This document shows positions 14,126 through 60,246 of a DNA stretch of 64,000 nt, in pieces. The translations under genes were made by a program, and so were the position numbers. Under the pieces are notes generated by a model, which was given only the letters and a program-made list of their open reading frames with translations, was not told the DNA's origin and did not search any database. Origin of the DNA: Beroe forskalii. Lineage: Eukaryota; Ctenophora; Nuda; Beroida; Beroidae. The stretch is taken from positions 53,887-117,886 of the forward strand of contig WFMF01000515.1 of NCBI GenBank assembly GCA_011033025.1, in the 5' to 3' direction. The stretch's first letter is position 1. Every line of letters starts with the position of its first letter.

Positions 14126-14139
14126 GGCCCCCCCCCATA

Positions 14140-16050: not shown

Positions 16051-16059
16051 CACAACACA

Positions 16060-17406: not shown

Positions 17407-17479
17407 GTAAGTGGATATTAATGTCTAATGTCATATTTATATTAGTATATCATATATACTTTGATTTTGACTATTTACA

Positions 17480-18806: not shown

Positions 18807-18866
18807 GGAAGAGCAAGATAAAGTCTATCATGTGTGCGGTTGGAGCTAACAACACCCACTCACTAG
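18807..18866 (+). CDS. RA-domain gene exon 6, left-arm copy
   Basis: A 60-bp exon between TTTCAG and GTAAGA, reading KSKIKSIMCAVGANNTHSL with two leading bases and one trailing base. It is identical in layout to the right-arm copy (51150-51209, minus). Its phase-1 donor joins in frame to the central exon at 36218, on the same strand. Nothing upstream of the left arm provides exons 1-5 on this strand. Confidence 0.7.
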
Positions 18867-19969
18867 GTAAGATGTGTTCAGCTACCGCTGGGCTGCATTT
18901 ACTGCTGTAACACAGAGATATTATGATCAAAGCACAGTACTTATGTACTGTGGTTTTATTTGTAGATTATTTGTAGACTATCTACGTGGATTGAAATATT
19001 CTTTTAAGTGATAAAGGTATTGGACAAGGTAGCCGTGGTTTTGCAACTATATTGTTGGCAGTTGAATATCACCTGCACTCTGCAGTTATGGCGACAGACA
19101 GCCTGTAATTTGGGTTTGGAAGTAGGATGGAACGATATCATATCCTATAGAATTATGTACGACTGTACAGTTTACATCTTACGACCTGCTCTACGTTATG
19201 ACAACTTTCTGGACGGAAATATGGCATCATAATATCATGGAACTCAACTGAACATAAATATGGCATCATGGCACCCAACAACAGTACCTTCAGATAATCC
19301 TAATACGTATCATATTCATCTGTCAAGATTATTCCTTACCAAACAATCATATAATACTAAGTAGGTCTTCTCGAATAGTACACTTATCGGTTAGCACTCG
19401 TATAAAGAACCCTTCTACTCTTCTTATTAGTGCTCGGCAGTTCTGTAAACTCTACATCCGTTTGTTTGTACGCGCTCATAGCGGCCTTGCAGCTCTAATC
19501 CGGCCAGTGAGCTAACGGATTCTTCCTTCTCCAATTTCCATGCGCCAACTTGAAAAAAGTTTTCTCTACAATTTTCATTGAGTTTCCATTGTACAGGGCT
19601 TTTAAGATCTCACTAGTTATAAACATAAAACTGTTTGTTTGACAAAAAGGGGAGATCGAGTGTTTTTTTCTTTTTTCTGTTTTATAATTATCCCAGCATA
19701 TTGCTGAGTGTGAGATTGTGTATGGCATTAAGATGATACCTTAGTAGCTGGCCCTAACTACATAATATGAGAGAATCAGCCTCGAAATATTGAGTATATT
19801 AATTCATTTTTAATGCTGCACTACTTGAATATTATTTCGTGTACCTACCTATATTATGCAAGTATACAGTTGATGAGTAGGTGGTATAGAATGTTTAATA
19901 TACGTGAGAACGAGGTAGGTAGAAGTTTAACACTCGTAGGACAGTTGTGAAACCAAGTTTCTAGTGTGC

Positions 19970-20095
19970 TGCAAAATAGTGAAGTGTGCTTCGAAAGAGA
20001 GAAGTGTGCTTCAAAAGAGTGAAGTCTGGTTCAGAAGAGGAAAATGTGCTTCAAAAGAGAGAAGTGTGCTTCGAAAGAGAGAAGTGTGCTGTGAG
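19970..20095. repeat. Short tandem repeat, about 19-bp unit (left arm)
   Basis: Units like AAAGAGAGAAGTGTGCTTC, six copies. The matching right-arm array at 49855-50075 is longer and more varied. Translations on either strand are repetitive. Confidence 0.8.
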
Positions 20096-20707
20096 AACTT
20101 CTGCAAAACAACAAAATACATTATTATTTCAGTATTTCGATTGGATTTTCCAGTTTGCGGAAGATCACATGAGGGTAGTGTCGCCTTAATAAGGATTTAA
20201 GTGGGAACAGTTTTGGTAGTTAGGGAGTTGGTCGGTGGGGAATGAGGCGATGAGTAGAAGAAAGATAAGATCACTTTCATTCGCACTCGGAAATCGAAAT
20301 CGACCAGTTGATGGTATTGCCTTGACTCAAATGAGCAAATGATAGATAGTTTTGTATGGATATTAGGGCAAATAGAATTATGGTATCATAAATGGTTATA
20401 TAAATGTTACAGGTCGTTATCAATGATGTAAGTTAATGCAGTTAGTTAATGACGTTAATTGAGTAGGTTAATACAGTTGTCAGTTAATTGAGTAAGTTAA
20501 TGAGTAAATGCGGAAAAGCTCTGTAGATTTATGTGACACTTGCTCTGAAAAGAGCCAGCATTTTGTTAATTATTAATAGTGCGATTCCGAGAAAAAGCGA
20601 CCCGGCCGAGATCGAGAGTTGTGTTATTGGTAATGCTAATGCTCTAAAGCTCTAAGGTAAGTCATAGCTTGCTCCTGGTAAAGGTTGCCTGGCGCTTGCA
20701 AGTGTAT

Positions 20708-23328
20708 ATATACATATACCCGCAGCCTCTAGGGCTGAATTTCATATCGCACGCGCATGCGCGTGCGATATGAAAATATATCCCTCGAGGGCGCTAGCCC
20801 GAGTGGGATATATATCGTATAGCACGCAGGGCTCGAAGAGCCCGAGTGCTATATGAAATTCAGCCCATGAGGCGAGGAGTATATAGTATATACTATATAT
20901 CCACTCGCGTGAGCTTTTTGGGAGAATGGCATATCTAAGATGAAAAAAGTTGAATGTTCAAGTAAATCCTCGAAGATTTGAACACACAGGAAGGTTTTGC
21001 AACAATAATATTGAGTTTTTTTTCTCTAATTAACAAAAATTTAATTTTTTCACAAATGCAATACAAACACGATTAAGCACCGTAAGTATTTGATCGAAGG
21101 GGTTGGTAAAGCTTATGTAGAGTTATGAGCCCGAGGGCTGAAGGGCCTGAGGGCGAAAAAATTCTTAAAGGCGAATCGAATCAAAGCATGGATCAATCTC
21201 AAAGGTCTTGCAATCGAAGGATTATTGGCTAAAAATGTGGTTAGATGCTGTTAATTAAACTTAAAACACTAGCAATCGTGGAAAAACAAACAATGATTGG
21301 AAAAACAAACAAAGGGGAAAATGGTAGCATGTCACTTTTGTGAAACGCATCAGTTACAGCAGAACTTGAAAAGATACAAAACGATGAAAAATGGGTTAAA
21401 ATGAGCGTATTTACATTTGGTGAAACTCTGCAGCACTGTTATAATAGACAAATGAGAATGACGCAATTACCATGGTTGAATATGGTAAGTCATTAGAATA
21501 AAGTGTCCCTCAAAATTTTTCTCATGAGAAGTTGCACAATGTATCATTGTATCAGAGTGTCGCGGTAATTAGGCGGCATTTATTTTACATCGTATCCGCT
21601 GTGTGTGAGAAAAAATAATGCACCATTGTTACTAATGATAATGACGTATTGCTCTCACTCACCTCTTGCTATTTCCGAAGAATGTGTAACCATGACAACA
21701 TGGCAATGCAATTAATGATCAACACAAATGCAAATTCCTAACTTTATTTCATGATATTCTATTTCATTCTCTCGTTTTTGATTTTGTATCTTTTTACTTC
21801 TCTTTCTCGGAATGATTGCTTTCACAGAATTGCTGCTATCACTGCTATCACTGCTATCACTGCTATCACTACAATTCACTGTTTTCTCTGCTATTTGACT
21901 CGACTTTTGTCTACTGTTGGCCACATATTTTGCTGAATATTTATTAATTATCGATACCTATGTTGTTTTGCTGTCGATTTTAATCCAATTCTATTTCGAA
22001 GTTGAACTACTTCTCATAATTTCATGATTCAGTAAGCTGCTGAACAATGATGAATATCAGTTTCAGTGTTTTGACTCTTAACTTTCCATCGCCTCGATGT
22101 TTTTGTCGATAATGAACTCCACAAAAATCCTTCTATTTGCCAGTTTTTTGCCTCATGATCGATATTTCGCTGCTAAAATTGTTGTTGTGACACTTTCAAT
22201 GATCTCAGCCAGTTTAGCACCAAAAAAATATTTTCTTCCAAGAGGCGGGCTATATTCAACCAGCGTAGAACTGCTCTCGCGGGCCGGGCTATATCCGGTG
22301 GGTATATCAAATTTAGCGTGCAGATATTTTACCGGGCCGCGCGCGCCCGCTACCTAAAATGTCTTCAAAAAGCGCACGCGAGTGGATATAAAATACATAG
22401 ACACGGTGCGCGAAGGGATCTATTTCAGATAGAACCCGCGTAGCGGGTTCTATCTGATAGAATGATACGAGTGCGCGCAGCGCACGAGTTTTCATTCTTT
22501 GTGTAATCCCGAGACGAAGTCGAGGGGTTACACTTAAATAGACTCTGAGAGCACCGTGTCTGTATTATAGATGAGTCCGGTTATTGCATGAGAGTCTAAA
22601 AACACAACTAATGGAAATAACTGGTAACACAATTGGCAGAACAAGCATTTCAGCTTTTTAAGAGATTCAGTGCTTTGATTGGTTGATTTGAAACTTTGCA
22701 GAATTGACTTGAGGATGGCAGAAGGATGGGGTTCATGAACAGAAATAAGTCTATGAATTAAACAGGAGTATGTTTCAAAGAGGACTATTGTACGATAACA
22801 AATGCAACAACAAAAACAATATCAATCAAAGAATCAAAACAACAAACACAATATCGACGAATATTAGGGCATTACGATAATCTGCAGGAGCATGCAAAAG
22901 AGGTAATTGACCTCTTCTCGCCGTGCTAACAAGTAAAGCAGAGCCAGAACGGCGAAACGAAACAGAAATTAAGCAAAAAACTGTGTGTGAGAGAATGAGA
23001 AACCGTTTTGCTGAAGGATATTGCCCGAAACCAAGTGGCACGTGCGCGCGCAACACGTGACCTTGATTTGGTACAGTAACAGTGGCACGTATACGAGTCA
23101 CGTGGGACGGTAATTACATGTTTAGAGAGTTTCTCGCGGGAACGAAACATTTGGTATACATGTTGCAAGTAAGAGTGTGTGTTGTTTGAAAGAAGTAAAA
23201 TACACTGAAACTATGTGATAGACACAGTGAATGTATTTGATAGAGGGATTCTGCCAGCGTGTCTATCGCTCTATTTTTTATCCCCTCCCGCTGGCTAAAT
23301 CCTCACGCAATAACCCGGACGAATCTAT
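20708..23328. mobile_element. Composite 2.6-kb insertion present only in the left arm
   Basis: The right arm reads straight from GCAAGTGTATA into ATCACCAATAACAG (about 49120-49140), whereas here 2.6 kb intervenes between GTGTATA and CTATAAACACCAATAACAG. At 20731-20866 there is a long nested palindrome (GGGCTGAATTTCATAT ... ATATGAAATTCAGCCC enclosing two smaller hairpins). Further GC-rich hairpins lie at 22260-22500. The segment 22573-23328 has its own inverted ends (TATAGAT.AGTCCGG.TTATTGC), suggesting one element next to or inside another. No transposase was seen. Confidence 0.65.
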
Positions 23329-24219
23329 AAACACCAATAACAGTAGTAATCTGCCTAGTAAGGACGAGTAACATACTTTGGTAGTCAGACATTGTCTTTT
23401 AATTATACTAAGTACGGTAGTATAGCGCACTATTTTATTACAACAGGGAGTTAGAATGATTCTATCTTGGTGAGGCCGTCTAAAAGTGGTTTATGTGTTT
23501 TAAGCCCTAAAAGCGACAAAACAATGAAATGTGTACATTAAAACCTCCACTTGATAAGCACTTGGGACCATCTATATCTGTACGAATCACTTGCTCTGCT
23601 CGCTCCTCGTATTTACGAATCACTATTAATCAGCCGCATGTCGTGGGTTATATCTGCAATATTCCTATCTGAATAAAAAGCAACAGAGAAGCAGTTTAAT
23701 TTGCACTCATTAGCTCAGAGAGTGTTCTGACATTCTCTTAAAAGACACCTAGTCGAACTTGATTGGGAGTGCGTGCTATTTTAGGAAAATTAGATACTTC
23801 AACCTATTCCACTAAACCTTGTCACAGCATGCTTCACCACTAGATCAATCTCCTGAAATACAGAGTGTTTCTCGTGGCATTATCGATTAGGATAGTACAT
23901 CCTTCCTGTATTATCACGAAGCTGATAGATGAGGCCAGTTAGAAGAATTGTTAATTGACACGATTAATGCATTAACTTTGGTCGATAGATAATATTTAAT
24001 AACCATGAGCCAAACGCTTAGATGGACCGAAACCAGAAGATTTTGTCGTCGTGTATTTCTGGGGAATGGTTGAATATGTATTTAACCCTCCTCACCGTCA
24101 CAATGTACTAAACACACGCCAGTGTGTGCTGAGTGTAAAGTCCTACTAAGTTTTGATGTGGTCAATTAACGATGACCTCACGCAGTATGACCTCACGCAT
24201 ACTTCTCTAGCTTTCTGAC

Positions 24220-24430
24220 ATGGTGACTTCGTGGCACATGGTGACTTTGTGGCATGGTGACTGGGTGACTTAGTGACATGGTGACTTTGTAACATGGTGA
24301 CTTTGTGACATGGCGACTTTGTGACATGGTGACTTTGTGACATGGTGACTTAGTGACATGGTGACTTAGTGACATGGTGACTTTGTGACATGGTGACTTT
24401 GTGACATGGTGACTTTGTGACATGGTGGCG
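24220..24430 (-). repeat. Minisatellite, 16-bp unit, short allele (left arm)
   Basis: About 13 copies of CATGGTGACTTTGTGA. It corresponds to the expanded array at 47110-48270 in the right arm. Confidence 0.9.
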
Positions 24431-24802
24431 TCAGATGATTTTGTGACTAGCATTACCTGTTCCTTGTCACCCAGGGTAGTTCGCGACTCGCGTCCGTTAC
24501 ATTGCAACATTCCGTAGAAAATACCACCGAGCATTGCATAATACTCCGTGTTATGATGTATACAGGAAAAATAGTCTGTTTGACCTCGTTAACGCACCAT
24601 TGTGAGACCTGATAATGACGTTAAGCTGGGACCTCCGGAGCTCAAGTCACAGGCCACACAGCATTAGCAGCTGTAATAAAGTAGCTGTAAACGCTGTAAC
24701 GTTTAACACACATATATTATACAGTTACTAGTAGAGTTACAAGTAGGTTCACGACATGTCTTGTAGCATCATAAGGACCTGCCAGCTTTCTTAGTACTAT
24801 AA

Positions 24803-25535
24803 AATTATCAGATAACAAGAATTGCACCTGCCGGCACATTTCTTGTCCATTGTTCCCGTATGCAGGCGCTTAATTTCCCTCCCCCAGCTAGAGGTATATG
24901 ATCACGATCGACGAAAATGCATAACGCGAACGAGTGATTGTATCACTGAGAGCAGTGTGAGTGTTTGGTTCAGAGCTCAGTAGTTCATGGGAAAGCCGCT
25001 TAATTTTCTCGGAGCTACAAGCTGGAGTGCGCGGCGCAAACGCTGGGCCCTCTGCTGAAACAGAATAGTTAGAGGGAAACTATTTTTGTGGAAAACTTTT
25101 CAATATTTATCATGATCTTTGCTTCGATTCTCAATTAACATTTCTTGGACGCTCTACATAATTATTTCAACTGAAATCGTTATTCGTGTGGCTTGTTTGA
25201 CTTAAACAGCGCCGCGCACGAACTTACACCAACAATCTCACACCTGCGCAAGCGTTTGCGCGCGCAAATGTAAGAGTTGCTAGGAGACTCGACTGCATGA
25301 CGAATTTACACCAGTTTTATGACGAATTTACGCCACTTTTATGACGAATTTACGCCAGTTTTATGACGAATTTACGCCACTTCCATTTTCCGGGCACTTT
25401 CCAGAAATTACAGTAGTTGTATTGCAAATCTGAACCTGCTATGCACATATCCTATTTCTCATCTTCCAAACCACGATCTCTGCCAACCCTCTCATTTGCC
25501 TTTTTGTATACACAAAAAGGCCAATGGGGAGGGAA
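24803..25535. other. About 730-bp segment found only in the left arm, with a 22-bp tandem repeat
   Basis: The right arm goes directly from CTTAGTACT to AATACCGTTTGTTTACATT (about 46770 to 46750). Inside the left-arm insertion, 25297-25382 holds four units of the type TATGACGAATTTACGCCACT. No clear terminal repeats or target duplication, so it may equally be a deletion in the right arm. Confidence 0.6.
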
Positions 25536-26797
25536 AAATACCGTTTGTTTACATTATACAGGTTTATATGTTCAGCCGAAATGCTGAATTAAACAAGATA
25601 TACGTGGTATTTGTCCTTACATGTTTTTTTAAGTGGTGTTCAAGGGAAAGCATACAGCGAAATGTAACATCAAATATTTCTCAAATAATGAAGTTTTGCT
25701 GGATTAAACGTGATAAACAAATGGTCGGGCGCATAATATTATTAAGATCGTATTAGTATTATTAATTATCATAAATTCCATTATCTCACAGGACTGCAAT
25801 GCATTACTTTCTCATCTTATAAAGAACTAAAGATGTAACACCGTGAATCTCTCATTAAACTTCACCACATACCGTTGAATCCTGTACAAATGGTTATGCT
25901 AAATCACAAAAAGATGCGTTCCAAGCCCCAAAGTCATCAATTCACCATTGCAATCCTTCATAATGACATCACCCTTTCATTTGTGAGAATGTGAGCGGCC
26001 TTCAGAACAATCAGAACTAAAATTGCCTCGGGTGTTTTCTCAGATGAGTTTTGGTGACTAGTAGAATTCGGATTTTCAGCGAGAGGAGCCATGAAATCTC
26101 CCGAAGGGTTTCAGAAGCTCCTTGACGTAGCCCGGAAGAAGTTTATTTATCATCTTCACTTATATTGAGAGATATCTAGAGCCAAAAACCTGTCGTTTAA
26201 TTATGGAAGTATCCTAATTTCCTATGCTGAATGCACTTTAAAAAACAAAACAAAAATAGTTTTTACACATTTCCGAGGTGTTGAGGCTTTAACAAACGCA
26301 CTGCTCAGCGTTATGATAAACGTCTCACAAATCATAGGCTATTGAGAATGACGTAATTTCCATGCTTTAGAATCACAAGTTGATGACGTCACACGGCCAA
26401 CAAGCCAATGTTGAGACGTGTAGAACATAGAATATACGGTACATTCTGCTCTGACTTGGTCATCTAGTGCTGAAGTCGTACAACTGTCTAAACGTCTTTC
26501 TCAAATAATTAATGAGTATGCAATTACAACACAGATGTCAACTGACTATTATTTTGTCTAACGCAACTCGGTTTTATACTACTTTTTCATAGGGTACAGT
26601 TTATACTTGTCAGATTTGTCGATTCAAAAAAATAGAAAATAGAGAAAATTTTCTAGTCTATGATCAAATGTGATAGCGTGGCGTATCATTAATATTTAAA
26701 TATATTCCAACAACCATTGGATGATAGCAAAATGATGCCAAGTTAATTTAGTTGCAGTAAATGTAGTTAGTGTAAGTAACGACAAAGCACCCAGATC

Positions 26798-27908
26798 ATA
26801 GGTTCATATAAGTTGAAAATCACCACCCTTATCCTCCCTAAATTGAAAGTTTATCTTCGGTTTTTCATCTTTGTTATTTCAATTTTGTGGTAAAACTTGC
26901 TCAACAAGGTATCTGATTATTTGACTTAAAATGTGACCAATAAATTTCCAGCAAAAAGATCAAACTTCAAAGGTTTTTCATCTTTGCCCTTTCAAGCCAG
27001 TCGTTGAATTGCTGCCTCAGGATTTTGATCATTATGGTCTTTTAAGTCTAGTTTAAGATATATATTTTGGTCACATAAAAAGTTCCAAAAAAAAAGGGCA
27101 AGATATATTTTGACTATAAATTTGGGGGGGGTCTGGAGCGGCAGCCCCCAGAGGGCAAACATTTGGAACAAATTATCTTAATAAGACTTTTTACTGTCAT
27201 TCAGTCATTCATGTCTAATTTTGATATATAAGCATATCAGTTCTTTGGTATGAGAAATGTTTACAGAAGCGAAAGTAAAACTTATTTATTATTTAAGCAA
27301 GGGCCTGGAATGCGTTAGATCTCAGGAGCCAGACGTTTGGAGCAAATCGAAATTGGAATTGCTGTCCCAGTAGGATATTTGCCCTCATTTCAGCCTTATT
27401 TTATCACAGTATCACAATTAGAATTTGCACTTAATCTTCGCTTGTCCAAGACATTAGACAATCAATTTATCAAATTTAGATGATTAGATGAGAAGAAATA
27501 TGTATTGTCTTGCCCTTTAGACTTTTGTTGATAGATAAAAATCCTACGCATGCTGCTTATTAATCCTCGTTTTCATTTAATATCAAAATAATAGTTATCA
27601 CCACAGCAATGACAATCTGCGGCTTTTATCAAAGGCATTCCCTTTTAGCTATCCTTTTCTGCTCTTGGAAACCGAAGATGATCCCGGAAAAGCGAATAGA
27701 ATCCTTAGTTTTCCTAGTTTGGTTTGTTGGTTTCACATAGCACATCTCAAAAAGAGATGACAATTTCACAATTGTTCCACTACTTATCACCAAATTTTGT
27801 TTGTTTTTTTTTCAAATTTGAAAATTTTTGCTGGTAGAAAAATTTTTATCCTCGCTCTTGGCCTTATCCTCCCTATGGGAAATGGATTTCAACTTTTGTG
27901 AAGGGGTG
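26798..27908. mobile_element. 1.1-kb hAT-like non-autonomous element (left arm only)
   Basis: Flanked by the duplication ACCCAGATC (26789-26797 and 27909-27917), while the right arm has a single ACCCATATC at about 45478-45486. Inner ends are weakly inverted (TTCA.A.AAGTTGAAA.TC on both sides). An 8-9-bp duplication fits hAT-type insertion. No transposase coding remains. Confidence 0.65.
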
Positions 27909-28009
27909 ACCCAGATCCTGGTACTCTGACTAACTTTCGTACAATCAATTCACTCGCAATAAGAAGCAAGGTCTAGAAACTTCATGCTTCATCACTTAGC
28001 ATAGCAACC

Positions 28010-28175
28010 AAAAATATCACCAAGCAGCACTTAAAAACACGTATCACATAACAACGAGTAGCAACCAAAAATATCATCTAGCAACACTAAGCAACGCCTA
28101 GTAACCAAAAATATCACCTAGCAACACTTAGCAACGCCTAGCAACCAAAAATATCACCTAGCAACTCTTAGAGTC
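28010..28175. repeat. Tandem repeat, about 29-bp unit (left arm)
   Basis: Units like AGCAACCAAAAATATCACCT. The inverted counterpart lies at 45110-45410 and is longer and more diverged. Confidence 0.8.
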
Positions 28176-29024
28176 TCAGCAACACTGAAAGCCAAACAAA
28201 TTACCTAGCCACTCTGCCCAGGTAACTCATCGACAGGAACTCTCTGCTCACAATGTAAGCTACTGACTGCTTATACACGGTGTACATCGTACATTATACA
28301 TTGTGTACATTGTACCGTATACTAGCGCTACACTGAGTGTATATTTTGTAAATTTTGAGTTTGCATGGTACCCTGCATGAATCAGAAGGGGGGACTAATT
28401 TCAGTGCTTCAATGGCTAATGTAATTGAAGCTGTGAAAGGATATTGAAATGAGCTACCAACCTTTTAAAATTTATTTGCGTTTGGCTTCCATTCATTTTA
28501 CATTGTTGCAATGGTACTTCGTAAATGAACCCTAGAAGCTTCTAGAGCTGGTTAATGGAATGGGAAAAGGGAAGGGCCAATTTCACTGAGCTTGATTGGC
28601 TCACTGCTTTGGCAGCTATAGTTCTCACTTTAAGTGTACTTATATTAGGAGACACATCAGAAGTAAGTTTACTAATTTGTGTTGATGTAGTTGGCTAATT
28701 AGTTGCTGATAGGACGCCTTGTTATTTACTGAAATTCTCACGAAAACTTTCTGATATGAACCGGCAATTTGCTTCCGCTGACAAGTTTAGTTAGGTTCGT
28801 ACAGCTGGTAACGTTTCCTTGGAAGCGCTATCCGCTTTCCTTGGTTTTATTATGATGTGATAAGTTAGTTGTAATTTATGTTTTATTTCATTGAGAATCT
28901 TTCTCCTTGAATTTGAGTGGATTTTATTCATTATTTGAAACTTTTCACGATTTTTATCTAATTCAATTAGAATTTAGAAAATAGTTAATTTGGCTAATTC
29001 CAATGTTTTGTTGAGAAAACAGTA

Positions 29025-29083
29025 TCTAAATATTTACTTCAGTATCTAAATATTTACTTCAGTATCTAAATATTTACTTCAGA
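29025..29083. repeat. Triplicated 20-mer
   Basis: AGTATCTAAATATTTACTTC occurs three times back to back. The right arm (about 44240) has a single diverged copy, so the repeat expanded in this arm only. Confidence 0.85.
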
Positions 29084-31265
29084 ATTGAAAAATGTTTCTT
29101 CTGTAGTATTTACATGAAGCTAAAGTCGTGATCGCTTTTTAAACAAAGAGAGTGCAGTTTTGAACTGTGTTAGAGAAAATATTTGATAATTATTCCGAGA
29201 TTCTCCTAATTCTTACATAACTGAATATGGTTGTCTCGAAAAGAAAAACGTCCCAGTAAAACATCTGTTTCTAAGTAACAAATGATCTTAGAGGTGTAAC
29301 GAATGAGCTGTTTGAAAGAACTCCTTCACAGCTCCGTGCAATGCCATGTGTGAGTAACTATAGTCGTAATACTCGGTTATGTGTGAGTAACTACTAACTA
29401 TAGTCGTAATACTCGGTTTGGTGCCCGGCGAATTCAGTGGATGTCCTTGCTGTACGGCAAGCTGGGGGGTTCCGTACCAACCGTACTATTGCGACAGATG
29501 TGAAAATAACCTATATAGAAAGATTGTTGTTAACTTTGATGAATCAGAAAATATTCAAGTTTTGGAAATAGAACTACAATTTAATGGTGCATGGTAAGAC
29601 AATAGTTTCCTGTTCAGATGAATCATTATGACGCAAACCTTTTTGAGTCGATTTCTCAACGTACGTTGTATTAAAACATCCGTCTAACTAAATTCTATTA
29701 GTAACCAGAACACTAAGTGGAATGTTGCTACTCTAGACTGGAATCCCTTCAAGGCCACTTGGATTTCCTCTGAAACATTAGAATTCCAAGAAAATACTGC
29801 AGACCTGGCTCTGAATAAAATGTAGAAATTACTCAAAATTTGGGAGGATAACGCAAATATTAGACTTTGAAAGCTCAGATTTCCCTTGCATATAATACTA
29901 CTGAGGATCGCTCCTCAAGATCAATAACCCGTTCCCTGTTGGCTGTCTACTACCCCAGAGCAAACAAATTACAGCATTAAGTGTGCATTAGCGAGATCTT
30001 TATCTTTACCTGGGGTCAGTACACATACCATCTAGTGTGCCAAGTAATCTTAGACTGAATTAGATTCCACCAATCTCCTCCAGCATTCTAGAGATGCTGA
30101 GAGCGGTGTCAACCAATGAAAGGACCCTACTTCCAGCTACAGGGTTATATGTGGAGCGCACTTATTAGGGGTAATTACACACAGGGTAATTATGTGGTCC
30201 TTGACGGTGTACACGAGCTGTATTGTATATCCGTGTACCCGAGCTGTAGTGTATATCCGTGTACCCGAGCTGTAGTGTATATCCGTGTATACAGGATGAT
30301 ACAACCTGTGCTACACACGCCATGTTGTACAATGTACAATGTATATTGTGAACATCGTGTGAAATGTATAGTGTACATTGTTAAGTGTGGACTTTGTGCT
30401 GTGTATACTTTGTAATGTGAGCAGAGCAGAACTGTGTGCTGAGTGTATAGGTACTTAGTATAAATGTGGGCAGTAAGATGGTACCTTGTACATGGTACCT
30501 TGTATGATATTAGCGTACAAACCCCCATCATTTCGTGTGCCGTTTGTTCAAAAAAATTGTATACAACACCGTAATGTCCGGTGTTAGTTAAAACAGTGTA
30601 TACCTTGTACAATAAGTCAGTGTATCCTGTATAATGTACATTTTACGCTGTACCTTGTACAGTTCTGAATAAGTTGAGTAGTAATCTCTTTCACACTCAA
30701 ATTAGGAGTTAGAAATCAACCTTCAGCCTTGCTTTCCTCTATAGTAAATCTTGTGGAGTAATCACCATTATATTCACATTACTCTCAAGAAGCCGTGAGA
30801 AGTCTACAAGGATATGATCTGTCGATGAAGATCACCACGGATCTCCATTAGAGCATTAGGGTACTCCAAAGAGCTTTTATTAGGGACACTGTACGATTGT
30901 CACTCAGTCTTCATCATTCTAAGTTCTAAGAATCAAGATCTATGTATAGGTAACGAACTTTCATCTTGAAATAAATAACACCAAGCCAACCCGATATCGA
31001 TGATCATGTATTTTCTCTCGTCGTATTATCCACTGCTTCAATTATTGTATTAAGATCTGAACTAGTGAAGCCACGTTCAGTGAATTTATTCACTGTACTC
31101 ATTCACAGTATGAATCACGTGAACCACATCTTGATATTATCATTTTGATACGCTAAACACAGAGGGGAGTTGACGGTGTTATCATGATTTGAAGTTTTCA
31201 ACTGTTCGCGTACAAAGCACCTTCTTCAATCTTCAATACAGCTCATTCGCATTTTGTGTTATAAT

Positions 31266-33890: not shown

Positions 33891-33895
33891 GTGGC

Positions 33896-35215: not shown

Positions 35216-35384
35216 ATACATTCAGTACACACTAAACAGTGTACAGTGTACACAGGCCCCAGTATTGTACCAACCTCTTTTATACCTTACATCTTGTATA
35301 TAACCGCTACACAGTTCACAAACCAGGTCCCCTGTCTAATTGTTTTTCTACATGGAGTGCACACTTTGTACCCTTCCCCGTGTG

Positions 35385-45410: not shown

Positions 45411-47109
45411 AGCATGAAGTTTCTAGACCTTGCTTCTTGAGAGTGATGTTATTGTACAATAGTTAGTCGGAGTACCAGGATATGGGTCCTTTTACTTAAC
45501 TTACACTAACTACATCTACTGCAACTACATTAACTTTACATCATTCTGCTATCATCCAATGGTTGTAAGAATATATTATATAAATTAATGATACGCTTCA
45601 CAATCAAATTTAATCATAAACTTGAAAATTTTCTCTATTTTCTATTTTTTGAATTGACAAATCTGACAAGTATAAACTGTACCCTATGAAAAAGTAGTAT
45701 AAAACCAAGTTGCGTTAGACAAAATAATAGTCAGTTGACATCTGTGTTGTAATTGCATACTCATTAATTATTTGAGAAAGACGTTTAGAGAGTTGTACGA
45801 CTTCAGCACTAGATGACTAAGGCAGAGCAGAATGTACCGTATTCTTATATTCTACACGCCTCAGCATTGCCTTGTTCGCTGTGTGACTTCATCAACTTGT
45901 CATTCTAAAGCATGGTAATTACGTCATTCTCAATAGCCTATGATTTATGAGACGTTTATCATAACACTGAGCAGTGCGTTTGTTAAAGCCTCAACACCTT
46001 GGAAATGTGTAAAAACTATTCTTGTTTTGTTTTTTAAAGTGCATTCAGCATAGGAAATTAGGATACTTCTATAATTAAACGACATGTTTTTGGCTCTTGA
46101 TATCTCTCAATATAAGTGAAGATGATAAATAAACTTCTTCCGGGCTGCGCGAAGGAGCCTTTGAAACTCAGTGGAGATCTCGTTGGCTCCTTTCGCTGAA
46201 AATCCGAATTCTACTAGTCACCAAAACTCATCTGAGAAAACGCCAGAGGCAATAGTTCTGATTGTTCTGAAGACCGCTCATATTCCCACAAATGAAAGAG
46301 TGATGTCATAATGAAGGATTGCAGTGGTGAATTGATTACCTTGGGGCTTGGAACGCGTCTTTTTGTGATTTAGCATTACCATTTGTGCAGGAATCAACAT
46401 TATGTGATGATGTTAAATCTGAGAATCACGGTGTTTTCTTTAATTCTTTTCAAGTTTATATGATGCGAATGTTGTTATACATTGCAGTTCTGTGAAATAC
46501 TGAAAGGTATGATTATTAATAATGCTAATACGATCATAATATTATGCGCTCGACTATTCGTTTATCCAGCAAAAACTACATTATTTTAGGAATATTTGAT
46601 GTAACATTTCGCTGTATGGGAAGGGAGAAATGATTTCCTTTAAAAGTTTAAACACCACTTAAAAAATGTCAAGACAAGTACCACGTATATCTTGTTTATT
46701 CAGCATTTCGGCTGAACTTTATGATAAAACGTCCTGTATAATGTAAACAAACGGTATTCTTGTTTTAGTACTAAGAAACCTGGCAGGTCCTTATGATGGT
46801 ACAAGACATGTCGTGAACCTACTTGTAACTCTACTAGTGACTGTATAATATATGTGTGTTAAACGTTACAGCGTTTACAGCTACTTTATTACAGCTGCTA
46901 ATGCTGTGTGACCTGTGACTTGAGCTCCAGAGGTCCCAGCATGACGTCATTATCAGAGCTCACAATGGTGCATTAACGAGGTGAAGCTGACTATTTGTCC
47001 TGTATACATCGTAACACGGAGTATTATGCAATGCTCGGTGGTATTTTCTGCGGAATGTTGCAATGTTAGGAACGCGAGCTCCCCTCTAGGTGACAAGGCA
47101 CAGGTTATG

Positions 47110-48270
47110 CTAGTTACAAAATCACCATGTTGCAAAGTCACCATGTCACAAAGTCACCATTTCATCAAGTCACAAAGTCACTAAGTCACCATGTCACTAA
47201 GTCACAAAGTCACAAAGTCACCATGTCACAAAGTCACCATGTCACAAAGTCACCATGTCACAAAGTCACCATGTCACAAAGTCACCATGTCACAAAGTCA
47301 CCATGTTACAAAGTCGCCATGTCACAAAGTCACCATGTTACAAAGTCACTAGTGACAAAGTCACCATGTCACTAAGTCACCATGCCACACAGTCACCATG
47401 TCACAAAGTCACCATGTCACCAAGCCACAAAGTCACCATGTCACCAAGCCACAAAGTCACCATTTCACCATGCCACAAAGTCACCATGTCACCATGCCAC
47501 AAAGCCACCATGTAACAGAGCCACCATGTCAGAAAGTCACCATGTCACTAAGTCACCATGTCACTAAGTCACCATGTCACAAAGTCACCATGTCGCAAAG
47601 TCACCATGTCACACAGTCACCATGTCACAAAGTCACCATGTCACCAAGCCACAAAGTCACCATGTCACCAAGCCACAAAGTCACCATGCCACAAAGTCAC
47701 CATGTCACCATGCCACAAAGCCACCATGTAACAGAGCCACCATGTCAGAAAGTCACCATGTCGCAAAGTCACCATGTCACAAAGTCACCATGTCACTAAG
47801 TCACCATGTCACAAAGTCACCATGTCACTAAGTCACCATGTCACAAAGTCACCATGTCACTAAGTCACCATGTCACACAGTCACCATGTCACCATGCCAC
47901 AAAGCCACCATGTAACAGAGCCACCATGTCAGAAAGTCACCATGTCGCAAAGTCACCATGTCACAAAGTCACCATGTCACTAAGTCACCATGTCACACAG
48001 TCACCATGTCGCAAAGTCACCATGTCGCAAAGTCACCATGTCACAAAGTCACCATGTCACTAAGTCACCTTTTCACAAAGTCACCATGTCACAAAGTCAC
48101 AAAGTCACCATGTCACTAAGTCACCAAGTCACTAAGTCATCATTTCATCAAGTCAACATATTGTCACCATGTCACAAAGTCACCATGTCACTAAGTCACC
48201 ATGTCACTGAGTTACCTTTTCACAAAGTTACCATGTCACAAAGTCACCATGTGTACCATGTTACCATTTC
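47110..48270 (+). repeat. Minisatellite, 16-bp unit, long allele (right arm)
   Basis: About 70 copies of GTCACCATGTCACAAA with CTAA, GCAA and CCACAAAG variants, arranged partly in higher-order blocks (for example 47400-47560 resembles 47640-47790). All frames are open and give MSQSHHV-type peptides with no coding meaning. Confidence 0.97.
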
Positions 48271-49854
48271 AGAAAGCTAGAGAAGTATGCGTGAGGTCAT
48301 ACTGTGTGAGGTCATCGTTAATTGACCACATCAAAACTTAGTAAGTTAGTAGGACTTTACACTCAGCACACACTGGCGTGTGTTTAGTACATTGTGACGG
48401 TGAGGAGGGTTAAATACATATTCAACCATTCCCCAGAAATACGAAACGACAAAATCTTGTGGTTTTGGTCCATCTAAGCGTCTATCGACCGAAGTTATTG
48501 CATTAATCGTGTCAATTAACAATTCATCTTCTGACCTCATCTATCAGCTTCATGATAATGCACGAAGGATGTATCATGATAATCGATAATGCCGCGAGAA
48601 ACACTGTATTTCAGGACATCGATCTAGTGGCGAAGTAAGCTGTGACAAGGTTTAGTGGAATAGGTTGAAGTATCTAATTTTCCTAAAATAGCATGCACTT
48701 CAAATCAAGTGCGACTATGTGTCTTGTAACAGAATGTCAGAACACTCTCAGAGCTAATGAGTGCAAATTAACTGCTTCTCTGTTGCTTTTTATTAAGATA
48801 GGAACGATACGGAGTACAGATATAACCATACCAACGACATGCGGCTGATTTAGTGATTCGTACAGATATAGCTGATGGTCCCAATTGCTTATCAAGTGCA
48901 GGTTGTAAATTTATATACTTAGTTGCTTTGTCGCTTTAAGTGCTAAAACACACAAACCACTTTTGCACGGCCTCATCAAGATAGAATCATTCTAACTCCC
49001 TGTTGTAATAAAATAGTGCGCTATACTACCGTACTTAGTATAATTAAAAGACAATGTCTGACTACCAAAGTATGTTACTCGTCCTTACTAGGCAGGTTAC
49101 TACTGTTATTGGTGATTATACACTTGCTAGCGCCAGGCAACCCTTACCAGGAGCAAGCAATGACTTACCTTAGAGCTTTGGGGCATTAGCATTACCAATA
49201 ACACAACTCTCGATCTCAGCATTAGCATTACCAATAAAACAACTCTCGATCGATCTCTTCCGGTCGCTTTTTCTCGGAATCGCACCATTAATTAACAAAA
49301 TGCTGGCTCTTTTTAGAGCAAGTGTCACATAAATCTACAGAGCTTTTCCGCAATTATCCATTAACTTACTCAATTAACTGCAGTTACCTACTCAAGTAAC
49401 ATCATTTACTTACAGCATTAACTTACTTCATTGATAACGACCTGTAACATTTATATAACCATTTATGACACCATAATTCTATTTGCCCTAATATCATAAC
49501 ATTATGGTTCATAATTTATTTGCAATTTGTAACCAAAAGATATGGATGGATCGGACTACAGCACTTCTGTACTGTAATTCGTAGATTAAAATACACTACT
49601 ATCTACCGTTTGCTCATTTGAGTCAAGGCAATACCACCTACTGGTCGATTCCGATTTCCGAGTGCGGATGAAAATGATCTTATCTTTCTTCTACTCATCG
49701 GCTCATTACATTTCCCACCGACCAACTCCCTAACTACCAAAACTGTTCCCACCTAAATCCTCATTAGGGCGACACTACCTTCATTACATCTTCCGCAAAC
49801 TGGGAATCCAATCGAAATACTGAAATAATAATGTATACGCCTCTTGTTGTTTTG

Positions 49855-50075
49855 CAGAAGTTCTCACAGCCTACTTCTCTCTTTTGAAGCACACTTCTCT
49901 CTTTTGAAGCACACTTCCCTCTCTCGAAGCATATTTCTCTCTTTTGAAGCATACTTCTCTTTTTTAAAGCATATCTCTCTTTTCAAGCACACTCGCTCTT
50001 TTGAAGCAAACTTCTCTCTTTCGAAGCACATTTGTCATTTCCCTCTTTTGAAGCACACTTCTCTCCTTTGCAGCA
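49855..50075. repeat. Short tandem repeat, about 19-bp unit (right arm)
   Basis: Units like TCTCTCTTTTGAAGCACACT. Inverted partner of 19970-20095, expanded here. Confidence 0.8.
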
Positions 50076-51149
50076 CACTAGAAACTTAGTTCTACAACTC
50101 TACTACGACTGTTAAACTGCTACCTACCACTTATTAAACATTTTATACCACCTACAGCATACTTGCATAATATAGGACCTAGGTACACGAAATAATATTC
50201 AAGTAGTGAAGCTTTAAACATGAATTAATATAAGTACTCAATATTTCGAAGCTGATTCTACTGTATGTAGTTCGGGCCAGCTACTAAGGCATCATCTTAT
50301 GCCATACACAATCTCACACTCAGCAATATGCTTAGATAATTATAGTAATTAACAAAAATTTAATTGTTTGAATTATAAATAAACACTTGATCTCCCCTTT
50401 CTTTCAAGCAAATGGTTACATAGCAAGTGAGATCTTAAAAGTCATGTACAATGGTAATTCAATGAAAATTGTAGAGAAAACTTTTTAAATTGACGCATGG
50501 ATATTGGAGAAGGAAGAATCCCTAAGCACACAGGCCGGAAAAGAGCTGCAGGGCCGCTATAAGCGCGTACAAACAAACGGATATGGAGTTTAATGAACTG
50601 CCGAGCACTAACAAGAAGAGAAGAAGGGTTCTTTATACGAGTGCTAACCGATAAGTGTACTATTCGAGAAGACCTACTTAGTATTATATGATTGTTTAGT
50701 AAGGAATAATCTTGACAGATGAATATGATACGTATTAGGATTATCTGAAGGTACTGTTGTTGGGTGCCATGATGCCATATTTATGTACAGTTAAGTTTCA
50801 TGATGTTATGATGCCATATTTATGTTCAGAAAGTTGTCATAACGTACAGCAAGCCGTAAGATGTAAACTGTACAGTCGGACATAGTTCGATAGGATATGG
50901 TTTATTGGTTTTGTTCCATCCTACTTCCAAACACAAATTACAGGCTGTCTTTCGACATAACTGCAGGAGAAATTCGACGACCTACTAAGTTGTTGCAAAA
51001 CGACGGCTACCTTGGCCAATACCACTAAAAAATATTTTAATCTACAAACAATCTACAAATAAAACCACAGTACAGAAGTACTGTGCTTTGATCTGTATCT
51101 CTGAGTTACAGCAGTAAATGCAGCCCAGCGGTAGCTGAACACATCTTAC

Positions 51150-51209
51150 CTAGTGAGTGGGTGTTGTTAGCTCCAACCGCACACATGATAGACTTTATCT
51201 TGCTCTTCC
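51150..51209 (-). CDS. RA-domain gene exon 6, right-arm copy
   Basis: 60-bp exon between CAG (51212-51210) and GTAAGA (51149-51144), same strand as exons 1-5. Exon 5 ends in phase 1 (G) and this exon starts with GG, giving an in-frame join across PFKG-KSKIK. The downstream partner exons 7-8 are not found on this strand anywhere in the window. Confidence 0.75.
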
Positions 51210-51492
51210 CTGAAACACACATTAGGATCAGAGATCAGACTCGAGAAATAAGATAGATTTAGTGAAATCTTAGTGGTAAAGTACGAGGGTGATCAATTAG
51301 CGATAAATTTAACTCGGTGCGTTTGAATAGTGCTGGTCGACTTTACGGTTTACCTGGTCAAAACAGATTATGAGAGAACTTCAGCAGTGACCGTACACCA
51401 CAATTTACACGGTTGTGGTATATTAAACGATTAATTGATAATTACTTAATTAATATCTTAGCAATTATGAGAATTGAGATAAGAATAGATAA

Positions 51493-52671
51493 GGGATCGT
51501 TCACATATTACGTAATCAGCCGAGGGGGGGAGGGGGTTTCCAAATGATTACGTTTGATTACGAGGGGGGAGGGGGGGTTTGGCCAATGATTACGTAATCA
51601 AAATATCTAAATTTTCATGAAAATTTCAAGGATTTTTATGAAAATTTCACGAATTTTCATGAAAATTTCAAGAATTTTCATCAAAATTTAAAGAATTTTC
51701 ATGAAAATTTGAAAAATTTTTTTATGAAAATTTAAAGGATTTCCGAATTTTTATTACCAAAAATGAACCATTTGCAGAAAAAAAATTGTCAAAATTTCAT
51801 AATTATGATTAAAACATGATCTACTCTAACTCAATATGGTTCAGAATGTATAGTTCCTTTAGTGCTGCCCATATAGGAGGGATGTACTCCATTCCTTGAA
51901 CTCTTCCAAACCACTTCAGCGCCTCTTTGTATATAAGGTTTGCTGCTCTGTGCTTGATCAGAGGTTCGGTGGCCTTTCTTGCCCTAGAGCTCTAGAGTTG
52001 ATGCCAGAGCAGGTCTTGGTGTACATCCGCAGCTCCATTATCCAGGAATCAATCTTTTTGATGAAGGTGTAGGAAGCTGCAGTTGTCTGTGAAGTTGCCA
52101 GACTCTGATCTGGCACTTAGGAGCTAGGGCTGATCTGGATCTAGGGTTCTGTCGGCAGATGAGCAGGACACCGCGGATACTGAACTTTGGTTCCTACGGT
52201 TTTGAAGGAGGTTGAGGTGGGACCAAGACGTTGATTTCTGGCTCTTTAGTGGAACTGGGGGCCTCAGGTGTAGAGGAGGAGGAGGATGATCTGTTGGAGG
52301 TAAAGGAGGATGATGAGCAGATGAGGATGCCTTGGAGGAAGAGAAAGAGGAGGAGGTGTCCATCTCATTGTCAGAGGAGTTGTCGTAGGCGAGATTTCCA
52401 TGGGAAAAACTAAAAGAAGCTTTGAATGTCATCTTCAGCTCGATGATGTTGATGATTGAATTGAAACACATGATCCTTTTCTAATTTTTTGTCAGTTAAT
52501 ACAGTTTTTTGGTGACGTCAAAAAAACTGAAAGAGGGGGTTGGGCCATGATTACGTAATATTTTCCGAAAAAGAGGGGGGGTTTGGCCATGATTACGTTT
52601 GATTACGGAGGGGGGGGGAGGGGGGGGTAAAAAATGCCCAAAAGTTGATTACGTAATATGTGAACGATCCC
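51493..52671. mobile_element. Harbinger-like DNA transposon relic, 1179 bp, TAA target duplication
   Basis: Terminal inverted repeats of about 26 bp begin GGGATCGTTCACATATTACG and are flanked by TAA (51490-51492, 52672-52674). The left arm (18550-18565) preserves the empty site with a single TAA. Three-base TAA/TTA duplications are typical of PIF/Harbinger elements. Inside, an AT-rich 22-25-bp repeat (51605-51740) and G-rich blocks flank a decayed minus-strand coding segment (about 52470-51830). This has acidic, Ser-rich and Pro-rich parts and a C-terminal piece with RAANLIYKEALKWFGRVQG, possibly a remnant of an accessory protein. No DDE transposase was found. Confidence 0.85.
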
Positions 52672-52793
52672 TAATCAGAAGAACACTGTCACAGTGCTCA
52701 GTACGTGCAGACATACGAACACAATACCGATGAGAGACAGTCAATTACAATTTATGTAGCACAATAAGCTGAAATACAATTCGTCAGTGTGAA

Positions 52794-53018
52794 ATGTTAA
52801 TGAGTCGTGTAGATGATATTGTGAGAAAGTCTATTCAGATAGCCGATCGGAATTCCAGATTCCCACCCTTGAGAAATAAACTTCTGCTTAGAATGTTCAG
52901 ATCCAAGCAACGAGCAAAACACACCTGGCATGAAGTTCAGCACTATTTCGAGCTTCATGATCCGGAGATAAAGGCAACCAAGGAGGAACTGCGCAAAGGA
53001 AAGCAAAAACACCACTAG
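52794..53018 (+). CDS. Small ORF of unknown function in the right arm (74 aa), disrupted in the left arm
   Basis: The ORF is charged and helix-rich (for example HTWHEVQHYFELHDPEIKAT), with no signal peptide or known domain. The left-arm counterpart is interrupted by the MITE at 18137-18330 and by a further indel. The ORF lies antisense to the RA gene, within its intron between exons 5 and 6. Chance conservation is the simplest reading; a small nested gene is possible. Confidence 0.25.
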   Translation: MLMSRVDDIVRKSIQIADRNSRFPPLRNKLLLRMFRSKQRAKHTWHEVQHYFELHDPEIKATKEELRKGKQKHH

Positions 53019-53615
53019 CGGATAGCAAGAAATAAAGCCGTTACCAACGCACTTGTGCGTCGAAGGAAGGAAGGCAAGGTGGCAAATGCACAAACACTAA
53101 CTAACTGACTAAGCAAGTAAAAAGGCAAGCCTACGAGTCTGTAAAACGTAGTTTGAGCGACACACGCAATATTATGCGAACGCTAATAATATATTATACA
53201 ACACTTAACACTCCCCGGAGGACTTACCAGCGGACAAAACCAAACACTCCCGAGTCTCCGGAATAGGGAGTGAGATGTGAGTCACATACACACACTTCTA
53301 CATACTGGGTACCTACATACAAACCCACACTTAGTCAGACAAACGGTGTAAATTTGCTGAACACTCTCGTGTGGCTACATCTACTGCGTGAGCGTGTGTG
53401 TAGGCTGCCGAGTGCTGTTCCGGTCGACTGGCGAGTGTTTGTAATATTATGTTGGAAAGTTAGTCACCTGCTGACAGCTCCTGGAATCCCACCAAACGAC
53501 ACACTCTCCATTTTATGGCAAATACGAAGTGTTTTGGGGGGGTTCAGGGAGTGTGCAGTGTACCCATTCTTTAGCCTACATATCAAGTGCTTTTGGAGTA
53601 GGAATGTGAAGTTGT

Positions 53616-55786: not shown

Positions 55787-58700
55787 CTTTGAAGGGCGTT
55801 TTCACGACAGCCAGTTGGTAGTCCATGGCCGAGTCAGTGACACCCCTGTCCTTCAAAACGTAACTAATGAGGTCCTCTGCAGTGGTGTAGTATCGAACAG
55901 GAAACCTGGGGAAAAGTTACTCCAATTATTCCTTACGCAATGGGTGAAGTGGTGGAGAGTTTGAAAACTTACAGCACTGAATTGAGAAATCTGAAAACTG
56001 AATGTGATGTTTATCTTTGAAGTAAAGTAAAATAAACATAACTTTGTTGACTGAATTCACATCAATATTATAATTTGAATAATTTTCCGATTGTCAGTAA
56101 ATTAACGCTTCCAAGTACCTATATTATGACGATACTTTTAACTTTCGGAGTTCAAAATAAAAATTGCTGAACATAATAATCTGTAGCACAGTTAATCATG
56201 TTAATACTAATGTTGTCTAAATTTCTCTACTTATGTTCCGACTTTCTCAGCAGGGCCAGCACACAGTCGGAATTACATGATATAATAGCAGTTATTCGGA
56301 CAGAATCCAAAGAAATTCAATACTCTCTCTCACCTTACATAATTTTACAAGAGGAAATAGCTGTCAACTTGTGTAATGAACAGGACGTTCGGTATAAAGT
56401 TTACACTGAACATGTTGCATATATATGCATCACAAGAAAATATTTGCTATGTTACAAGCAACTTTCGCCCTTGGTGATATTTCGCAGTAAAAATAGCGCT
56501 GGTTGAAAAGTGGTCACTTCATTACAGTCGGGAAGGCAAGGATGCATTTTTGGCTGATGAGAATTATAATGGGAGATTAGGTCATGTCAAAAGTATGTGA
56601 ATCTTTCTTTGACCCGTGCCTCCGATTACTATGAGGAAAAGGAGTTAGATTTGCTGACAGGTTGTGATTAGAGCTTCATGCTACTTGGAGCTAATGTAAC
56701 ATTGAGGAATTTACAAAGTGCTTCCCACCTGAAAGGCACCTAATATCACATCGTGAGGAATACGAATTTCAACCCATGACATGCCCAATAATTCTCACCA
56801 TTCATTGCAAATGTTACCTTGTCAGACAAGCTTCGCCCTCGCTGAGCTCCACATAGACGTCCACCTTGAGTTCCTGAGTTGAGTTCCTGATCAACTTGTC
56901 CACATCACGGCGTGATATGGAGAGGAGGACTGCCAGCAACTCCTTCGTGCCAAGAGTAGCTGCGCCGTCCAACAGATCCGGACTCATGTCGTTAGCTGAG
57001 ACATGTGCAGTGTGGGTGTGCTGTACTTGCCACATGGTACTTTAGTGTTTAAAAAGTATAGGCTCTGTGTGGTGTGATGTGTACATTGTACATTGTACAT
57101 TGTATTATGGTAACATAGCAGGTTAGGAATATAGTTTTCCTACAGCATAATTGTATGGCAATTGGCACAGTAAGTGCAGTGAAACTATTGGGAAATGTTG
57201 GTACTGTAGTAAACGAGTAAATAATTGCTTATTAACTTGGTTATAATGGCTCACTGTTTCTTCTCCTATGTAACAGATAGCATATTTAAGAGTAAAACTT
57301 ATATAGCTATCACCGAATTATTCGACTGATGAACCACCAGCTAGAATTGTGAAAATAGTGATAAATCCGGGGGGGGCCGAGAGCTAATTGGTTGGACCAC
57401 ATGCCAGTTAAGGGGTGGGTGACCCAGCAGGCTCAACCAGTTAGGGTCTGGACCCTAACTGGTAAAATTTTCTGCCAAAAGGGTCCACCAAACCATCTGA
57501 CCAGTTAGATTTTGCTACCTAAGTGGCTATTTTCAGACCTCTAATTATTATTGAAATTACCATTTCAATCGAAATTGAAACCAAATTGATTCATTCTACC
57601 AGAAAACGCAAGATAAAAGAAAGTGAGTATGCTAAATTGCCAATTTTGTGCTTATTTTTCATCGTATATTCTTAATTCTATATATACTGTATTATGCACA
57701 TATTTATCACTCACACATAACTCAATAATCAACATCATATGACCTTATCAATCTCGCAATAACGTTGATGGCATAGGCGCTCGAAATGATAGTGAAATAA
57801 ATTAATAGGTACCGTTCATTCTTAATAATGATTCTGTGTCATTTTCGTTGTATATTTAACAGAAAGTTGTTTTTTGGAGCTTTAAAATATGATGTGCAAT
57901 GATAATTATGAGATCGGAGAAAAATGCACATATTTAGCCATAGGAAATTAAGTCTCGATAATTTATGGGATTCAATTGAGATATTACATTATTATATAAC
58001 ATTATGGAAATCAACATTAATTGGGTGGGTGGTTATCGTCGATTTTGCCCAACCACTTAGGGTAAGAACCTAACTGGTGGGTGGGTGGGTCAAAATTTTG
58101 GCTAACCAGTTAGGTACCAAAATAGGCATGTGGTCCAGCCATTTAGCTCCCGGCCCTCCCCCGATAAATCATTAGTTTTTGCAGTAACTTGTCACAATAC
58201 ATACTACAGACAATCTCATTATCATATGGCCACTACATTTCCCAAAGGAAGCACAGGGCCATGAATCACATCATTGGATGTCAGCAGTCAGTTCTTAGCA
58301 TTTCTCAAGTTCCAAGAAGAAACAGTCAGTATGTGATTGTTAAAGCTGTTGTTACTACATAACTCATATATAAACAGGGTTTGTGTTGTGAAATACAGTT
58401 TGTATGAACCAACATCGGACATGTTTCAAAATGGTATGTTGATCATATTGAAATGATGCTCTGAATATTACTGTCACTATTTTCTCGATGAAATTTGCCC
58501 CCAAATTTTTGACTTTTCTTAGTTGTTTTCTTGATTCTCAAACTTGCTAAGAATGCTTTATTTGAGGCCCCTGAAACAATTAAACTCAATAAAACAAAAA
58601 TATAATGATATTTAAATGGATACCTGAAACGTCTTGTTCAGTGGAAAGTAGGATTTCAGATAGGTATAATTGTTAGATAAGATCGATAGGTACCTAAAGT

Positions 58701-60246
58701 AATAATGGCAATATCTAATAAGATCAACAAGTTTACAAGAATTTCAGTCAATTGTTCATAAAGCAGTACTTACCCATGGACATCCTGGCACTAGATTGTA
58801 AATGCTTATAAACAGTGCAGTAAATTCCTTCTCGTTTTCCAGGCTCGATCATTTCCTCATCTGAAAAGGTTGACTATCATATATTATCATATTATGATCT
58901 GTTTTTAACCAGAGATGAGCTTTCTTTATTTTTTTAAATTTAAAACAATTTTTTATTAAACATGTGCAAATTTTAATAACTTTATGATAAAGCTTAAAAC
59001 ATATTGTTTTGATATTGCTTTTGGTTCTCTTAAACTTTTTCTAAAATTAGGTTTGGTAACAGCTATAAATTAGGATCTGTAATAGCTTCAGTGATGAATA
59101 CATTTGAATTATTTATTTATCTATTTAGTTTTAAACTTACAACACAACACATATTAAATTAACTAACTGAGGATGATTAACATTCACACGGAGATCCTGA
59201 AGATGGAATATTAAATTCCGAAACTGTCAGTAGATTTGTGTGGTTGTGTGAAATTGTTAGATTCATTCCATTCATTATCATCATTGAGTTTCACTCGTAT
59301 CTCATTCACTGGATATCATGAAGGATCACATTAAAGATCTATTTAGTTACTTTAATCAATTGCTACTAATGGCTTTATCTTATCAGTAAATGAAAATTAC
59401 TACCCACTCATCAATAAGCTTAACAATGGCATCATAAATTTGTTCACCACTTTTGAAACCTGTGGAGGAAACCCAGATTTAAAATACTCAAAACTAAACA
59501 TTCCATACTGTCACATTGGCAGTTGAAGCTATAGTTTTGTGTGTGCAGTGTAAGATTGTGTAGCATACAGACATGTTATCTATATGTCTTAACTCCACAC
59601 AAACTTATGCTCAGCACACAAAACTGTGTGCTGAGCATATCATGGCATATAATGATATAGGGTCTAATGACTAATAGAGACTATTATACCCCTCCCAAGC
59701 TTGTTTTAGCGACCGTGTAAGTTTGGTTATACGGTCTCCTCTGAATAACAGTGCAAAAAAGCTAAAAATGAAATTTGATTTTATAAAGGAGCACTCAAAA
59801 ATCTACTTAAGCAATGAATCCGGACGAGGGTCGTCAGACCCAAGTGGGAAGAAATACTGTTGTTTGGCCGTAGAATAGTCAGTCCCAGCTGTTTCCGGTC
59901 AGGGTATAATCCGGTTCCATGATCTCAGCTGTGACCGTATACCTTCGATAATGAACTCGGCACGCCTCGTCCATTATCCAACTTACACAGTCTCGGCTGT
60001 CGCCTCGACCATGTAAGTTGCGGTATACGGTCACCACTTCGACATGTAACCGCTTAATAATTAGGGCACCCAAGTGTCATTATGGTGCAATGTGGGAAAT
60101 GATTTCAAACTTCATATGTTTATATGCATTTAGCACTCACCTTTAAAATCATTTCTAGAATATGTTTCTCTTTTTATGACACGAGTTTTTCTGGTTTTAG
60201 CTCCTCTTCCCTTGATTTTGCCAGGGCTTGCATCAGGGTTAGTCAT
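55787..60246 (-). CDS. RA-domain gene exons 1-5 (first Ras-association domain)
   Basis: Exon 1: 60246-60141 (ATG, basic MTNPDASPGKIKGRGAKTRK). Exon 2: 59459-59404 (FKSGEQIYDAIVKLIDEW). Exon 3: 58855-58774 (EMIEPGKREGIYCTVYKHLQ). Exon 4: 56995-56818 (MSPDLLDGAATLGTKELLAV, then QELKVDVYVELSEGEACLT). Exon 5: 55905-55787 (FPVRYYTTAEDLISYVLKDR, then DYQLAVVKTPFKG). All junctions are in phase with consensus GT-AG sites, most donors being GTGAGT, GTAAGT or GTAACA. The ELKVDVY strand plus TTAEDLISYVL and YQLAVV fit an RA-type ubiquitin fold, so the product probably binds a Ras-family GTPase. The alternative acceptor for exon 3 at 58860 would break phase. No TATA box was assigned. The family name is unknown to me. 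Confidence 0.75.
57368..58162. mobile_element. 795-bp hAT-like MITE with 8-bp target duplication, in an RA-gene intron
   Basis: Perfect duplication GATAAATC at 57360-57367 and 58163-58170. Inverted ends read GGGGGGGCCGAGAGCTAA and GGGGGAGGGCCGGGAGCTAA, followed on both sides by TGG.TGGACCACATGCC. Subterminal motifs of the type CTAACTGG recur. No coding capacity. Located between exons 3 and 4. Confidence 0.88.
59140..59260 (+). repeat. Structured short repeat, copy C (hammerhead-like core)
   Basis: CTGAAGA (59197-59203), inner stem GGAAT (59205-59209) with ATTCC (59215-59219), GAAAC (59220-59224), and outer stem TTCACAC (59183-59189) with GTGTGAA (59246-59252). Same 5' lead AATTAACTAACTGAG as copies A and B. 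Lies in an RA-gene intron. Confidence 0.6.
59685..60050 (-). repeat. Dispersed repeat, copy 2 (partner of 7065-7430)
   Basis: Reverse complement of 7065-7430 with only scattered differences. Lies in RA-gene intron 1. The 64-codon ORF over it is not a gene. Confidence 0.8.

Follow-up and report, generated by a model that had tools for sequence, protein, structure and literature searches.

The RA-domain gene whose exons lie on both strands of a giant inverted repeat in Beroe forskalii probably owes this arrangement to a misassembly in which two diverged copies of one locus, most likely haplotypes, were joined head to head. The window analysed here is a stretch of 64,000 nucleotides at the right-hand end of contig C598 (117,886 bases), in a genome of 216 Mb in 1134 contigs. 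Positions are those of the window, and negative positions lie to the left of it on the same contig. The window contains two inverted arms, exons of the gene on either strand and a degraded stretch at the outer edge of the left arm. A preliminary description had offered either a gene that is switched by recombination between the arms or two haplotypes joined head to head. Homopolymer stutter at the left edge, the degraded homology there and a parallel structure on contig C802 best support the second option, and these are the signs from which we infer the misjoin; the switch found no such support.

We propose that an ordinary RA-domain gene would lie on one strand, with the exon order (3)-4-5-(6)-7-8. 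Copy A (17.8-37.1 kb) would carry exons 6, 7 and 8 on the plus strand and copy B (37.1-64 kb) exons 3-6 on the minus strand. The two copies, presumed to be alleles, would overlap only in the arm region and would have been set head to head instead of being merged, so that the gene appears to change strand. The outer end of copy A would also have been mis-joined, via the low-quality sequence at 17470-17822, to a PDI/EMC1 stretch that does not belong there.

The Inverted Repeat

The giant inverted repeat is confirmed, and its two arms are inverted and collinear. They enclose a centre of 5.9 kb, and each arm has an insertion of its own:

17823-31265, plus strand: left arm, read here as copy A of the RA locus; holds exon 6 on the plus strand
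31266-37127, plus strand: centre between the arms, taken to continue copy A; contains exons 7 and 8
37128-53184, minus strand: right arm, read here as copy B of the RA locus; holds exon 6 on the minus strand
20709-23325, no strand assigned: insertion of 2.6 kb in the left arm only, composed of dispersed repeats
38079-43100, no strand assigned: insertion in the right arm only, a 5-kb element with inverted termini of 326 bp that are 98.5% identical

Over the ten blocks compared, 522 of 7747 alignment columns are substituted (6.7%; transition/transversion ratio 0.98) and there are 102 gaps. Substitutions at this level, together with the arm-specific insertions, indicate two real genomic copies and not read errors. 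Read-error noise was rejected as the cause of divergence in every block except the outermost one (324 alignment columns), where the differences are error-like, with a transition/transversion ratio of 0.41 and single-base gaps in six of ten cases. An extension of the arms via 7060-7427 and 59682-60059 was rejected as well, since the matching stretch is a dispersed repeat. Large tandem arrays occupy 33900-35230 and 47113-48276; the latter, in the right arm, is far longer than its left-arm counterpart at 24211-24448.

Genome searches with the inner arm (28050-30237) gave long matches only at its two copies on C598 (12 of 12 candidates scored). For DNA searches with long, repeat-rich pieces the best 39-40 candidates were scored in each case, and absence from these is not counted as evidence; two such searches, with the left-arm insertion and with the left flank, did not recover the query's own place.

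The divergence of the arms is unevenly distributed, with 6.3-9.1% substitutions in the eight outer blocks versus 2.5-2.6% in the two inner ones, and the inner stretches include near-identical runs of 281 and 267 bp. Gene conversion in a palindrome would produce such a rise in identity towards the middle, and plain haplotypes would not. In addition, the central junction between the copies (37.127/37.128) is clean and free of stutter, and C598 contains zero N. Together, these three observations leave room for a real inverted duplication in which only the left join is false. In such a foldback of the chromosome, the original gene would be faced head to head by a partial second copy (exons 6-8), its own exons 7-8 would be lost or lie outside the assembly, and the join at 17.47 kb would be the only false one. 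It would be in line with exons 7-8 being found once, but it requires that these exons were lost from one copy, and the same head-to-head form on C802 has 100 N between its arms. We regard a real foldback as rather unlikely. A polymorphic version, in which the 5.9-kb centre flips, the gene is intact or cut depending on the individual or cell, and gene conversion keeps the inner arms alike, is very unlikely.

Exons and Reading Frame of the RA Gene

The following exons of the gene were delimited:

58774-58860, minus strand: candidate exon 3, phase-compatible with exon 4 and not with candidate exon 2
56818-56995, minus strand: exon 4, encodes the beginning of the first RA domain (reading frame and RA match)
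55787-55905, minus strand: exon 5, encodes the central part of the first RA domain (reading frame and RA match)
51150-51209, minus strand: exon 6, right-arm copy of 60 bp, with AG/GT splice sites
18807-18866, plus strand: exon 6, left-arm copy, identical to the right-arm copy at 60 of 60 bp, with AG/GT sites
36218-36368, plus strand: exon 7, encodes a later portion of the first RA domain (reading frame and RA match)
36549-36706, plus strand: exon 8, first half of the second RA domain (open frame)

Exons 4, 5, 6, 7 and 8 are bordered by AG and GT throughout; the donor of exon 7 (GGG/GTTGTT) is weak. The claim that exons 7-8, on the plus strand of the centre, are phase-compatible with exons on the minus strand proved correct, as translation together with exons 3-5 gives a single open frame. 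This frame runs through exons 3-4-5-(6)-7-8 with exon 6 in or out, and skipping of the 60-bp exon thus keeps the frame. Exon 6 is indeed present in both arms as the same 60 bp with AG and GT at its borders, as had been described. Its identity between the arms is unexceptional: it falls inside an identical run of 113 bp, and the outer arms hold runs of 119 and 114 bp elsewhere. Eight exons with consistent phases, however, were not confirmed. Exons 1-2 are in phase and exons 3-8 are open, but with the splice sites found here the frame of exon 2 meets a stop codon in exon 3. Exons 1-3 are also without homology support.

In a protein search of the genome (three of three candidates scored), exons 4, 5, 7 and 8 were each found in one place, all of them on C598. 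A second copy of exons 4-5, which would be expected for copy A, was not found in the genome protein search. The exon 7-8 region (36000-37127) matched only itself and short sequences when searched against the genome, with no long match on other contigs.

These searches bear on the proposal that the locus is prone to inversion and that recombination between the arms makes the gene alternate between being continuous and being cut. Inverted arms with the near-identical inner runs described above would suit such a switch, and if real it would be an unusual nuclear gene controlled by inversion. We found no positive evidence for it: no alternative orientation was found in the assembly, exons 4, 5, 7 and 8 were each recovered from it once, the arm edge carries signs of a misjoin, and a structure of the same type, with 100 N between the arms, occurs on C802. 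A recombination switch thus seems extremely improbable.

The RA Domains

The Pfam RA model has 93 positions and a cut-off of 21 bits. Exons 4 and 5 alone score 18.9 bits, which is sub-threshold. When exon 7 is joined directly to them the score rises above the cut-off, to 23.9 bits, with a match to model positions 6-74 of 93. With shuffled versions of exon 7, all five controls stayed at 18.0-18.6 bits and the match ended at position 56-57. Placing exon 6 between exons 5 and 7 gives 20.8 bits, slightly under the cut-off of 21. Based on the open frame and the gain in the RA match, exon 7 is placed after exon 5 or 6, and it probably follows one of them in the real transcript.

A gene with two RA domains, as originally suggested, is thus borne out for the first domain, which exceeds the Pfam cut-off with exons 4, 5 and 7, while the second is present only by half. 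For exon 9 and the second half of the second RA domain, a motif scan of 36.7-64 kb on the plus strand and of -20 to 31.3 kb on the minus strand gave only two chance-like matches. A sequence search of solved structures in the PDB with both RA pieces returned no match at E 10, and domains other than RA were absent from the few pieces of the gene that were scanned. A resemblance to diacylglycerol kinase theta was considered as a guide to the identity and gained no support: the search of the genome gave five places with DAGK_cat, all on contigs other than C598.

Besides two N-terminal RA domains, Canoe/afadin carries FHA, DIL and PDZ domains. The tandem arrangement of RA domains in the C598 gene resembles that in Canoe/afadin and PLC epsilon, which are described as having two RA domains in tandem (PMC11698047). 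Unlike in these proteins, the second RA domain of the C598 gene is incomplete, and no sequence of the gene downstream of it could be located.

The Left Edge of the Repeat

Two features meet just outside the left arm:

17297-17407, plus strand: thioredoxin/PDI exon a short way to the left of where the join is suspected, in a region 98% identical to C403
17470-17822, no strand assigned: homopolymer-stuttered zone and suspected join, a degraded homologue of the right flank at 53187-53607

In a stutter scan of the 117.9-kb contig, the top two of 2355 scan windows start at 17515 and 17565, and all seven of those starting at 17465-17765 rank within the top 40. High stutter was also seen in C/A-rich repeats (13015, 14015) and in other places on the contig. 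Signs of sequence error or discordance are seen at the outer join, and the central junction is clean.

The zone 17470-17822 aligns over its full length to 53187-53607, directly beyond the right arm, with a local score of 215. Controls scored far lower, with 49.5 +/- 7.8 (maximum 87) for 200 shuffles and 43.8 +/- 7.9 (maximum 84) for 200 positions drawn from elsewhere in the window, clear of both aligned places. On the PDI side, 17150-17469 has no homology to the right flank (84 versus 80.2 +/- 8.0), so that the right-flank homology stops where the thioredoxin/PDI exon region starts. The zone has the appearance of right-flank sequence that was read badly.

The sequence to the left of the zone leads to another contig. 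Positions 16780-17470 are repeated with 98% identity at C403:812386-813103, and two pieces from 8.87-10.3 kb of the window correspond to C403:809827-810984 with their order kept; the comparison reaches 813103 on C403, as the query ended at 17470. The left flank 8081-17470 is about 6 kb longer than the collinear 3.3-kb stretch C403:809800-813103 and seems to carry insertions. The protein search (three of three candidates scored) placed neither exons 4 and 5 nor exons 7 and 8 on C403, and the inner-arm search (12 of 12 candidates scored) gave a single short match there. These observations are most simply read as a join between the left arm and the PDI region via a poor-quality contig end.

Further to the left, the window contains an EMC1-like gene (202-6681, minus strand), of which the piece 6358-6681 matches Pfam Beta-prop_EMC1_N with 46.3 bits. 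Two pieces of this gene were found nowhere else in the assembly.

The structure of this edge also bears on a real inversion in which staggered breaks would have turned the centre around, leaving inverted duplications at both ends and cutting the gene (PMC7584159). The geometry fits: exons 3-5 lie outside, both arms carry exon 6, and the centre contains exons 7-8 in inverted orientation. As in the staggered-break inversions treated in that paper, the centre on C598 is single-copy and is flanked by a segment present in inverted copies. C598 differs from them, however, at the left outer edge, where the sequence is degraded and abuts a stretch with a second copy elsewhere. Instead of a clean breakpoint, the left outer boundary runs on into degraded sequence homologous to the right flank, and the 98% copy of the left flank is on C403, a contig on which the protein search did not find exons 7-8. 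An inversion of this kind can be given hardly any weight.

Other Duplicate RA Loci in the Assembly

A genome search for the RA family gave 15 matches on 10 contigs, and duplicates were compared at the places on C802, C560, C847 and C172/C394, which is not a genome-wide count. On C802 (150001-170000; 20 kb compared), two RA copies are found in a head-to-head inverted repeat. Its arms are about 1 kb apart, and the spacer includes exactly 100 N, likely a scaffold gap, with stuttered sequence directly beside them. The C802 arms diverge by 4.4-6.4% (three blocks), similar to the 6.7% of the C598 arms. C560 has two RA copies about 105 kb apart that lie in inverted orientation and share 96.8% identity over 1445 bp, and C847 has two in direct order (96.9% over 2.16 kb). 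Near-identical RA exons are found on separate contigs in the case of C172 and C394 (97.7% over 213 bp). Diverged duplicate copies appear to recur around the RA family, and true paralogues may be among them.

Comparison With False Heterotype Duplications

False heterotype duplications in assemblies of heterozygous genomes are placed on the same scaffold in 7-24% in older assemblies, and gaps between the copies are described as a hallmark (PMC9516828). C598 would resemble them in keeping two diverged copies of one locus in a haploid assembly, and C802 has N between its copies. C598 itself differs in that it is without N. The missing gap between its copies lowers the claim of a haplotype duplication but is no reason to drop it, because gaps are a common sign and not a requirement. 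The words "orientation" and "opposite" have no occurrences in the main text of PMC9516828, and the literature matches listed on haplotigs, inverted misassembly or two RA domains contained no description of this locus.

If the head-to-head joining of haplotypes holds as an explanation, the gene is ordinary and the value of the locus is that of a warning for this assembly. Gene models and inversions that rest on diverged copies placed head to head would then need to be checked in it. Homopolymer stutter and degraded homology could help to find such joins where N are lacking. Further zones of high stutter lie to the left of the window, at -39885 to -39635 and at -11685 to -11435, and these may mark other poor joins.
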